Shown piece after piece: positions 19,526 through 22,833 of a stretch of 47,063 nucleotides of DNA. Position 1 is the stretch's first letter. Each line of letters opens with the position of its first letter. Location: NCBI GenBank assembly GCA_943359475.1, contig CALRHK010000004.1:1-47063 (forward strand). The letters run 5' to 3'. The DNA comes from Candidatus Nomurabacteria bacterium. Its GTDB lineage: Bacteria; Patescibacteriota; Minisyncoccia; Phycocordibacterales; UBA9973. Both the position numbers and the translations under genes were made by a program. A model generated the notes under the pieces. That model was given only the letters and a program-made list of their open reading frames with translations, did not search any database and was not told the DNA's origin.

Positions 19526-21229
19526 TTACATTTTTTCAGGTGTTTCAATACCAAGCAAAGAGAGACCATTTTTCATTACCGTAGCAAAAGCTTGGGTTAG
19601 GGCAACTTTATATCCAGACGTTAGGTCAGTCGCATCTACAATTTTATGTTCTGCGTAATAGGCATTGAAGGCTCGGGCAATCTCAATGAGATATGTTGCA
19701 ATATATTGTGGAGAATATTCTTTAAGTGCAGAAGTAACTACTTCGGGGAAACGATAGAGCAGTCTTTCTACTTCATTCACTTCTTCCGGTGCACTCATAA
19801 AAAGCAAGTCAATCGCCTCTGTGTGAGCTTTTGCTATAACAGAAAGTGCACGTGCGTATGAATACTGCAGGTACGGGCCAGAATCACCTTCAAAAGAAAG
19901 TGACTTCTCGAAATCAAAAATAATGTCTTTCCCGGTCCCCTGACGAAGGACTGAATACTTTAGCGCAGCGACAGAAACGTGGTTGATTATATTTTCTGAC
20001 AAAACACCGCGCGCGTCTGTGTTCACCTTTTCGATCACCTTTTCTGCAATATCGCCAAGGAGTCCTTCGCCAGTAATGACGTCACCGGTTCGCGATGACA
20101 TTTTTCCTGTCGGAAGTCGAAGCATGCCGTGAGAAATATGTACTGTTTTTTCTGCAAGCTCGGGGAATACGAGTTTCATCGCCCCCAACAATACACGGAA
20201 GTAATCATTGATTTCATTCCCAGTTACAACAATTGATTTTGTATATGGATAGAGTTCATATTTTTTCTTTGCTAGCCCAAGCTCTTTTGCTTCGTACGTT
20301 GGTAAACCCTGCGCATTTACAAATACACGCGTGTGGAGTGTGGGGTCATACTGTTCACCTCGAAAAACAATGGCGCCACCTTCGCCCTTTTCAAATACAC
20401 CTTTTCCGAGAAATTCTTCTACGATCTCTTTCCCAAAGCCACCTGTCTCACTTTCAAGGAAATAGAAATCAAATTGTGTACCAAGTTTTTTATATATCTG
20501 TTCAAAATACTCAAGTGATATCTTTCTACCATGCTCATAGAGTGCATTTATTTTTTTGTCCGATTTTTCGTAAAGCACTTTATTAAGTGCATCGATTTCT
20601 TTTTTCGTATCTAATTCATCATACGCCCTTGAGCCCTGTGTGTAAGCACGCGCGAGATCTTTCACGGTAAGCTCTGAAAGATTCTCCGCCACACCCTCTT
20701 TAAGCAGTGCCCACATTGTTTTTGCAACATGTACCCCAACATCTCCTTGATAGCATGCACGTCTTACTTCTGCACCAGAAAATGCCACAATACGCGAAAG
20801 TGACTCACCGATGGTGTTGGACATCAAGTGGCCAATATGAAATTCCTTAAACGGATTTGGGTCGGTATATTCAATTACCACTTTCTCGCCGTTGAGAATT
20901 TTGTTAGTGCCAAATGCCTCACCCGTTTCATCGATTACTTCTATTGCATTTGTGAAAAAATCGCGTGAAAGGTGAAAATTAATAAAGCCTGGACCTACAA
21001 TTTCAATTTTTGAAACTTCGTTAAGTTTTTTTTCTGAAAGTCTTTCAACAATCTTCTCCGCAAGCTGACGAGGGTTTTCACCACTTCTTTGAGCATAAAC
21101 CATTGCGCAATTGGTGGAATAATCGCCGTGTGAAAGTAGTGTTGGGTGCTCAAGAGCAATCTCATCCGTCTCAATTGCCAGCTCTTTGAGTGCTGCCTGT
21201 ATATAAGTAGTAAGCTTTTCTGCAATCAT
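19526..21229 (-). CDS. argS: Arginyl-tRNA synthetase
   Basis: 567 aa, normal length. N-terminal Add-1 domain, HIGH at residues 131-134 (EFHIGH), KMSSR at 376-380 in 'LPTGKMSSRTGDVI', and a C-terminal DALR anticodon-binding domain ('LLYRFPEVVTSALKEYSPQ'). Charges tRNA-Arg in the cytosol. Own promoter: TGcTAGACT ends 6 nt before the ATG. Monocistronic or loosely followed by the cysteine-cluster gene 39 nt on. Confidence 0.96.
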   Translation of the reverse strand: MIAEKLTTYIQAALKELAIETDEIALEHPTLLSHGDYSTNCAMVYAQRSGENPRQLAEKIVERLSEKKLNEVSKIEIVGPGFINFHLSRDFFTNAIEVIDETGEAFGTNKILNGEKVVIEYTDPNPFKEFHIGHLMSNTIGESLSRIVAFSGAEVRRACYQGDVGVHVAKTMWALLKEGVAENLSELTVKDLARAYTQGSRAYDELDTKKEIDALNKVLYEKSDKKINALYEHGRKISLEYFEQIYKKLGTQFDFYFLESETGGFGKEIVEEFLGKGVFEKGEGGAIVFRGEQYDPTLHTRVFVNAQGLPTYEAKELGLAKKKYELYPYTKSIVVTGNEINDYFRVLLGAMKLVFPELAEKTVHISHGMLRLPTGKMSSRTGDVITGEGLLGDIAEKVIEKVNTDARGVLSENIINHVSVAALKYSVLRQGTGKDIIFDFEKSLSFEGDSGPYLQYSYARALSVIAKAHTEAIDLLFMSAPEEVNEVERLLYRFPEVVTSALKEYSPQYIATYLIEIARAFNAYYAEHKIVDATDLTSGYKVALTQAFATVMKNGLSLLGIETPEKM

Positions 21230-21256: not shown

Positions 21257-21288
21257 AACAAAAAGCCCCTCCTTCGAAGGGCTTTTCT
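21257..21288 (-). terminator. Intrinsic terminator after the DnaA-domain-IV gene
   Basis: AAAGCCC / GGGCTTT stem with the T run TTTTTGTTTT, between the stop at 21294 and the argS promoter. Confidence 0.8.
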
Positions 21289-21293
21289 TATCT

Positions 21294-22346
21294 TTAGCTA
21301 AGTAGATGTTTTGGTATTTTATAGCGATCAAAATACCGCATTAGTTCAGCTCGAGTGAAAGAGGCATCGGTTAATACTTTTTCTCTTAGTGCAACAAGAA
21401 ACTTATTGGTGCTTTCTGTTGAGTCCACTTTGGCTAAAAGCATTTCAATCTTTTTTAATGAAAAGGTAACGTGTTGTTGTACATAAGGTTTTGTTTTATC
21501 GATCAACAAGGTTACAACCGCAATATACTTCTCGCGATACTCAACTGATTTTTCAATTAAAGTATTGTGAGTACTCACTGCATGGAGTACAGTTGCATGA
21601 TCTCTTTTGAATGGTTCTCCCATTTTTTCTAAACTCATTGCTCCACGATGAAAATCATGGACTACAAACAAATATATTTTTCGTAAATCTGTAAGTATGC
21701 GCTTCCTTGAGGGTCGTTCAAGCATCTGGCGCGACACCCCATATAGTTCTTGGAAACATTCCATGAGCTTAGTTGCAAGTACTGCATACGGGAGATTCAC
21801 AAGGGTCTCGTACTCTTTTCTATTCGGCATACGTAATCGTCCGACCTGGTGAGGCATTTTGGGAAATACTCCCCCGGTTACTTGTGTATCAAGTTGACGC
21901 ACTTTTGTATTGCGTGGCAATTTGTGCGATGCATTTTCAAATAATATTCGGCATCGGGAACGGATTTTGTGCATCATGCTTTGATATTGCGCACTTCTAT
22001 CACCATACGTATTGAGGAAATTCTGGTGTTTACTAATCATTTCTCCTGGAGTTACACCATTGAGCATCAGCATTTGCGAAAGTTCCTTTACTTTAAATTC
22101 CGGGTATAAATCATAGAGAGAACCAAGAAATGCTACCCGTGGCATTTCAATCATTTTTTTGTCACCCTCGTTGGCGTAAATAGCTTCCGGGGTATTCCCG
22201 CTTACTTCCGCAACTACATTGAGCAAGGTGGCGATTTCATTGAGTACCCTACCTCCAATCGGCTTTTTTATATTTTCTTGTAAAAGAACAAATTTCTTTT
22301 CAATGGGATTCCATTCGTAGTTTCGTATATGTGCCTGTGGTTCCAT
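21294..22346 (-). CDS. DnaA domain IV-like DNA-binding protein without AAA+ ATPase (two copies of the fold)
   Basis: 350 aa from MEPQ; a longer frame from 22490 overlaps dut and its terminator and is rejected. Residues about 190-285 match DnaA domain IV: 'LYGVSRQML', basic helix, 'SLEKMGEPFKRDHATVLHA', with the DnaA-box-contacting signature RDHATVLHA at 248-256. Residues about 42-130 repeat the same helical pattern ('VAEVSGNTPEAIY', 'KVKELSQMLMLNGVTPGEMISKH') but lack RDHxTVLHA. There is no Walker A/B and no AAA+ module, so this is not DnaA itself. It could bind DnaA boxes as a replication or transcription regulator. It has no partner gene in its transcript; the neighbours dut and tmk are dNTP genes. 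Confidence 0.82.
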   Translation of the reverse strand: MEPQAHIRNYEWNPIEKKFVLLQENIKKPIGGRVLNEIATLLNVVAEVSGNTPEAIYANEGDKKMIEMPRVAFLGSLYDLYPEFKVKELSQMLMLNGVTPGEMISKHQNFLNTYGDRSAQYQSMMHKIRSRCRILFENASHKLPRNTKVRQLDTQVTGGVFPKMPHQVGRLRMPNRKEYETLVNLPYAVLATKLMECFQELYGVSRQMLERPSRKRILTDLRKIYLFVVHDFHRGAMSLEKMGEPFKRDHATVLHAVSTHNTLIEKSVEYREKYIAVVTLLIDKTKPYVQQHVTFSLKKIEMLLAKVDSTESTNKFLVALREKVLTDASFTRAELMRYFDRYKIPKHLLS

Positions 22347-22370
22347 GTGTTGTTTTTTCTCACCATACAA

Positions 22371-22400
22371 CAAAAAGATACCCCTGCGCAAGGAGTATCT
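22371..22400 (-). terminator. Intrinsic terminator after dut
   Basis: GATACTCC / GGGGTATC hairpin with a 7-nt loop followed by TTTTT. It lies inside the longer alternative frame of the DnaA-like gene and therefore argues for the start at 22346. Confidence 0.8.
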
Positions 22401-22410
22401 ACTTTTGAAC

Positions 22411-22833
22411 TTATTGCTTTCCAGTTGACCCAAATCTTCCATCGCCTCGACTTGAGTCTGAGAGCTCCGCCACCTCTTCGATGGTCGCAATCACTACTGG
22501 AAAAATAATGAGTTGGCTCGTCTTATCACCTTTTTCGAATGTGTATGGTTTAGCCGAAAGATTGATGAGGTGTGTATTATATTCACCACGATAACCCGCA
22601 TCGTAAACACCACCGAGTACTTTCATACCGGCTTTTGAAATGCCACTTTTATCATTAATAAGTGCAGCATATCCTTCTGGAAACTCAAGCGCAAAACCAT
22701 GAAAGATGATCTTACTTTCCCCAGGCGCAAGCGTGAAAGTCTCCAGGCAATATAAATCAAGCCCCACATCTCCCGGATGAGCATAGCTTGGAATTTTTGC
22801 CTCAGGATTTAGTTTTTTAAATTTGAGATGCAT
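22411..22833 (-). CDS. dut: dUTP diphosphatase (dUTPase)
   Basis: 140 aa, trimeric family length. The five motifs appear in order: PGDVGLDLY (I), DKSGISKAG (II), GGVYDAGYRGEY (III, with the catalytic Asp), GDKTSQLII (IV) and GRFGSTGKQ (V). It hydrolyses dUTP to dUMP and PPi, keeping uracil out of DNA and feeding thymidylate synthase. A TGtTACACT -10 ends 6 nt before the ATG. Own terminator, so monocistronic, but placed in the dTTP gene block. Confidence 0.95.
   Translation of the reverse strand: MHLKFKKLNPEAKIPSYAHPGDVGLDLYCLETFTLAPGESKIIFHGFALEFPEGYAALINDKSGISKAGMKVLGGVYDAGYRGEYNTHLINLSAKPYTFEKGDKTSQLIIFPVVIATIEEVAELSDSSRGDGRFGSTGKQ

Follow-up and report, generated by a model that had tools for sequence, protein, structure and literature searches.

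DnaA domain IV is usually viewed as part of the replication initiator. Domains of this type also occur outside DnaA, and some of the described examples act on transcription. GafY of Caulobacter, a stand-alone DnaA-domain-IV protein first called HdaB, is a transcription activator (PMC9632790, PMC11150451); it was initially proposed as a replication factor, but subsequent work found that it drives the transcription of GTA (PMC9632790). GafA of Rhodobacter, with its DnaA-like N-terminal DNA-binding domain, likewise acts on transcription (PMC9638019), and the transposases of TnpREP subclass 2.1.2 carry Bac_DnaA_C and have targets unlike DnaA boxes (PMC6006769). The protein analyzed here, P0001 of Candidatus Nomurabacteria, shares with these systems a DnaA-type domain re-used outside DnaA. 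It lacks the HuH nuclease of the REP transposases, and it differs from the two alphaproteobacterial regulators, which have a single domain IV and are tied to GafZ/DUF6456 and GTA genes, in carrying the domain in tandem; its gene is flanked by dut and argS, with no GafZ/DUF6456-like partner adjacent. P0001 falls far below the cut-offs of the two PRK06030 models that we take to stand for HdaB/GafY (17.9 bits against 148 for NF004686, a weak match at 0.0021, and 16 against 181 for NF004687). DnaA domain IV is re-used alone, and in tandem, by a minimal-genome bacterium of a kind in which gene and replication regulation are little understood, and the P0001 family forms a link between the stand-alone DnaA-C proteins of cells and those of phages.

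The gene was found in a 47,063-nucleotide stretch of DNA (the window) from a host genome of 647,947 bases in 30 contigs, rated 100% complete. Its open reading frame (21294..22346, minus strand) runs from an ATG at 22346 to a stop codon at 21296-21294 and encodes 350 amino acids with a predicted pI of 9.6. The C-terminal domain IV (aa 187-290; 21477..21788, minus strand) is readily recognized: Bac_DnaA_C (PF08299) matches aa 195-258 with E = 2.8e-10 (40.5 bits against a gathering cut-off of 31.5), the signature RDHATVLHA occupies aa 248-256, and the best PDB match by sequence is the M. tuberculosis DnaA-DBD (5.9e-5). No AAA+ family (domain III, Walker A/B) was matched among Pfam and NCBIfam-type models, and the DnaA model TIGR00362 covers just positions 351-430 of its 437 and scores 32.6 bits where its cut-off is 343.9. 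The sequence-only reading of this gene, which had noticed the DnaA signature in a full domain IV-like region of a protein without AAA+, was therefore correct on this point. The base-specific residues of E. coli DnaA are R399, P423, D433, H434, T435 and H439 (PMC7561715), and R442/K443 contact the DNA backbone (PMC9638019). In the alignment, the C-terminal copy keeps four of the six base contacts (R214, D249, H250 and H255 for R399, D433, H434 and H439), together with the equivalents of R407 (R222) and T436 (T252), whereas A251 stands for T435, E240 for P423, and S258/T259 replace the backbone contacts. Unlike DnaA, the protein also has a histidine (H260) at the position of I444, followed by YREKY at aa 270-274; this residue is invariant among the relatives described below and is Ile or Val in all 58 DnaA sequences checked.

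That the N-terminal half holds a second, degenerate copy of the domain had also been proposed. Comparison of the two halves of P0001 with BLOSUM matrices stayed at chance level and a DnaA profile gave no signal in the N-terminal half, and the case for a tandem was therefore built on relatives and on fold. When the N-terminal copy was compared with about 1250 ORFs, the best match was the C-terminal domain of the protein encoded at the syntenic position in G012 (z 5.5). In G032, a stand-alone domain IV protein reached 4.4, and two unrelated ORFs scored 5.2 and 4.6. The domain IV-type sequences of 14 relatives were ranked high as a group (Mann-Whitney, P = 6e-4; 2e-5 for the N-terminal half of the G003 protein), and profiles of the N- and C-terminal domains aligned colinearly with E = 0.0044. 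These values are moderate, and the comparison that decides the matter, itself based on a predicted structure, is that of fold. The segment aa 27-149 (21900..22268, minus strand) was modeled with AlphaFold, without templates, from a two-sequence alignment (A5) with a single relative (L184, on the same contig as the G003 copy). The model is of medium confidence (pLDDT 65.6, pTM 0.58) and has six helices in the order of domain IV (approximately aa 30-49, 53-57, 67-80, 86-92, 100-114 and 119-138). In a Foldseek search of the PDB its first four matches were all DnaA domain IV (3pvp_B, 3pvp_A, 1j1v and 1l8q), each with probability 1.00, a TM-score of 0.57-0.62 by query length and modest E-values of 0.024-0.23, and the fifth match had a probability of 0.15. 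Among the best 50 matches in a viral structure library, every named one was a DnaA C-terminal or DnaA protein, the others being unnamed. Structural likeness of the N-terminal region to domain IV, on which the tandem claim had been made to depend, was thus found, and the helix-turn-helix fold of DnaA domain IV (PF08299; PDB 1j1v, 3pvp) is common to both halves of P0001.

In contrast to the C-terminal copy, with four of the six base contacts of DnaA, the N-terminal one keeps none: D62 replaces R399, a lysine replaces P423, and N96, G97, V98 and E102 stand at the positions of D433, H434, T435 and H439. It had been suggested that two folds in one chain could bridge two DnaA boxes; with all six base-contact residues missing from the N-terminal copy, this is unlikely. 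Beyond the two domains lies a basic and predicted helical tail (aa 291-350; 21297..21476, minus strand), the only part to exceed a pLDDT of 70 (58-75 from aa 301 on) in a full-length single-sequence AlphaFold model that was otherwise useless, at pLDDT 39. The G003 protein may end in a comparable tail.

Pfam confirmed the neighbours that had been read from the sequence. On the same strand as the P0001 gene, dut (dUTPase; 22411..22833, minus strand, 2.1e-24) lies upstream, as do tmk and glyA, and argS (19526..21229, minus strand, 3.9e-33) is immediately downstream; thyA is about 2.5 kb away on the opposite strand. Terminator-like hairpins separate the gene from argS (21260..21287, minus strand) and from dut (22376..22400, minus strand), suggesting that it may be a separate unit and not an ordinary operon member. 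Since the second hairpin lies 30 nt 5' of the ATG, little space is left for a dedicated promoter. A 6-bp inverted repeat, TGTTGT-N13-ACAACA (22348-22372), directly precedes the start codon, and apart from it and the hairpin no inverted repeat was seen upstream of the gene; the repeat is at chance level and is a possible candidate operator.

A scan of genome contigs and viral contigs detected no close relatives of P0001. Related genes were searched for across 147 genomes from 24 genera of a Candidatus Nomurabacteria family. In this family dut and argS are normally adjacent: among 80 ArgS-related loci, 13 had no dut just upstream, and in only five of the 67 others did the gap between the two genes exceed 250 bp. 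Six other genera have a related gene between dut and argS or directly ahead of argS, and nearly all of these genes encode two domains (G003, 359 aa; G012, 307; G016, 293; G021, 329), which gives a patchy distribution over seven of the 24 genera, the host genus included. Pfam finds no match in the G016, G021 and G004b proteins, and their assignment rests on position, on the A1 profile and on the similarity of their N-terminal halves; a search with that profile returned mostly DnaA, and also the G021 (1.1e-4), G004a (4.4e-4), G032 and G045 proteins. In G004 (L164:2279-4280) two paralogous tandem-type proteins of 356 and 283 aa are encoded in a row before argS and share a similar N-terminal start (KWD/KWN, then CIP/IIP). 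In G009 (L250:3984-4938, on the same contig as L044) the tandem is apparently split into a kept domain IV of 170 aa and a 125-aa ORF whose likeness to domain IV was judged by eye only. A 364-aa gene beside the G003 copy is similar by eye and its relatedness was not supported. In G014, G102 and G048 the space between dut and argS is taken up by unrelated genes, which points to a variable site. Further genes of this type, each for a stand-alone domain IV, lie beside priA (G036, G030) and elsewhere in G013, G032, G055 and G045. The tandem proteins are 18-32% identical, as against 50-64% for ArgS and 49-75% for Dut, a sign either that they diverge very fast or that related genes have replaced one another repeatedly. 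The recognition helices of the relatives have been rewritten (HTNICH, HCNYLH, or no match). Because the same locus recurs across genera, it provides a natural series of variants, some with the recognition helix kept and some with it rewritten, in which the way a DnaA-type reader shifts its target could be followed.

Phages commonly encode DnaA-C proteins of a single domain, with at least 408 confirmed among the 600 candidate stretches listed. Like P0001 they have no AAA+ domain and carry the DHAT signature (e.g., Flavobacterium phage tooticki6-1 gp026, 112 aa), and some share with it the histidine at DnaA position 444 (13 of 80 sampled, compared with none of the 58 DnaA sequences) and the Y..KY extension. 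The best annotated phage match of P0001, in Flavobacterium phages (E = 0.01), has all three features. The sampled phage proteins, of 87-248 aa, are single-domain with no recognizable second domain IV, and the tandem version was found neither among the 80 phage loci nor by tblastn in phage and plasmid collections. A tree was built from 59 domains over about 100 columns, with 22 DnaA rows that included E. coli and Patescibacteria; its phage sample had been chosen with a HAT-containing pattern, and its branches are long. The DnaA rows form one clade (99/86) that excludes both the C-terminal domain of P0001 and the phage proteins. That domain falls on the phage side of the branch, the CPR rows being long-branched and outside the supported phage forks. 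Forcing seven CPR stand-alone proteins together with DnaA was not rejected (p-AU 0.245), so the domain may also derive from a host DnaA. As far as the sequences go, P0001 is best described as phage-related, short of proof, and would belong with the phage stand-alone proteins rather than with the DnaA of its host. The gene was probably acquired and internally duplicated, and part of the Candidatus Nomurabacteria then probably retained it between dut and argS.

The interpretation that we prefer, and to which we would give an even chance, is that P0001 is an accessory, phage-related tandem DNA-binding protein that acts as a sequence-specific transcription regulator with its own sites, as GafY/HdaB does; a role as a transcription factor was among those that the sequence-only reading had put forward. 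Most likely, the C-terminal copy would use its preserved helix-turn-helix to read a DNA site that is either DnaA-box-like or diverged, while the N-terminal copy, with its base-reading residues lost and its fold and basic character kept, would add non-specific DNA affinity, dimerization or contact with a partner. P0001 would then most likely be a transcription regulator (or a DNA-architectural factor) with its own targets, like GafY/HdaB and GafA, and not a substitute for DnaA. We favour a regulator over a competitor for DnaA boxes or inert cargo because of the GafY, GafA and REP precedents, the changed recognition residues and the fast divergence.

Competition with DnaA is an unlikely but coherent alternative. 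The C-terminal copy, which keeps most of the DnaA-box contacts, could titrate boxes or block DnaA at oriC and at DnaA-controlled promoters, modulating initiation, while the N-terminal copy dimerizes or bridges. The host has a normal dnaA elsewhere in its genome (449 aa, with dnaN next to it), and two exact DnaA boxes stand at the two ends of the dnaN/dnaA intergenic region together with a cluster of near-boxes, as is normal for an origin. A third PF08299 match in the host genome, a 116-aa ORF read as ribosomal protein L20, is due to chance. However, the window has seven exact DnaA boxes (TTATCCACA; consensus TTWTNCACA), against 8.6 expected, and none directly upstream of the P0001 gene; nothing in these data points to oriC. 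The link to replication proposed for this gene is not supported. It is further weakened by the base contacts, which are partly changed in the C-terminal copy (T435A and P423E, in addition to Ser/Thr for R442/K443), wholly lost in the N-terminal one and rewritten again in the relatives, by the placement of the domain apart from cellular DnaA and on the side of the phage stand-alone proteins, and by the history of HdaB, which was first linked to replication and then re-assigned to the regulation of GTA (PMC9632790).

We consider it equally improbable that P0001 is cargo derived from a phage or mobile element, that is, the regulator or replication factor of such an element in transit at a variable site, with no role in the host. 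The presence in seven of 24 genera, the unrelated genes that occupy the junction elsewhere, the phage stand-alone relatives and the very fast divergence would all fit cargo. However, no integrase, phage or plasmid genes are adjacent to the gene, which is flanked by housekeeping genes, several genera share this architecture at this one junction, and the tandem version is missing from the phage and plasmid sequences searched. Somewhat less probable still is a host-domesticated, rapidly evolving mimic of DnaA that is bivalent, with one domain on a subset of DnaA sites and the degenerate one on a second DNA segment or on DnaA itself; if this were true, replication or transcription in Patescibacteria would be under a further level of control. 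A decayed or chance frame derived from dnaA, with no functional protein, is very improbable: the degenerate N-terminal copy and the lack of a close homologue in the genome-contig scan could be read in that way, but the frame has 350 open codons and two kept folds, recurs in seven genera and is framed by terminator-like hairpins, and the host dnaA groups elsewhere in the tree.

Other combinations of the domain were observed in the course of this survey. G155 (L042:1534-2580) encodes a protein that resembles REP-type transposases and has Bac_DnaA_C at its C-terminus, as in TnpREP subclass 2.1.2. In genome G043, the only one of six in its genus to have it, a gene at L268:586-2280 (minus strand) encodes a 564-aa protein in which sigma-70 regions 2, 3 and 4 are followed by an intact Bac_DnaA_C (3.4e-22, DHTTVRH); the genome has a normal dnaA and a further sigma-like gene as well. 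DnaA boxes could attract such a sigma factor. Finally, in two genomes, genes transcribed against their neighbours (L047:4773-5465 and L046:2854-3549) encode proteins of about 230 aa that join an uncharacterized N-terminal half to an intact DnaA-C domain (1.9e-19).
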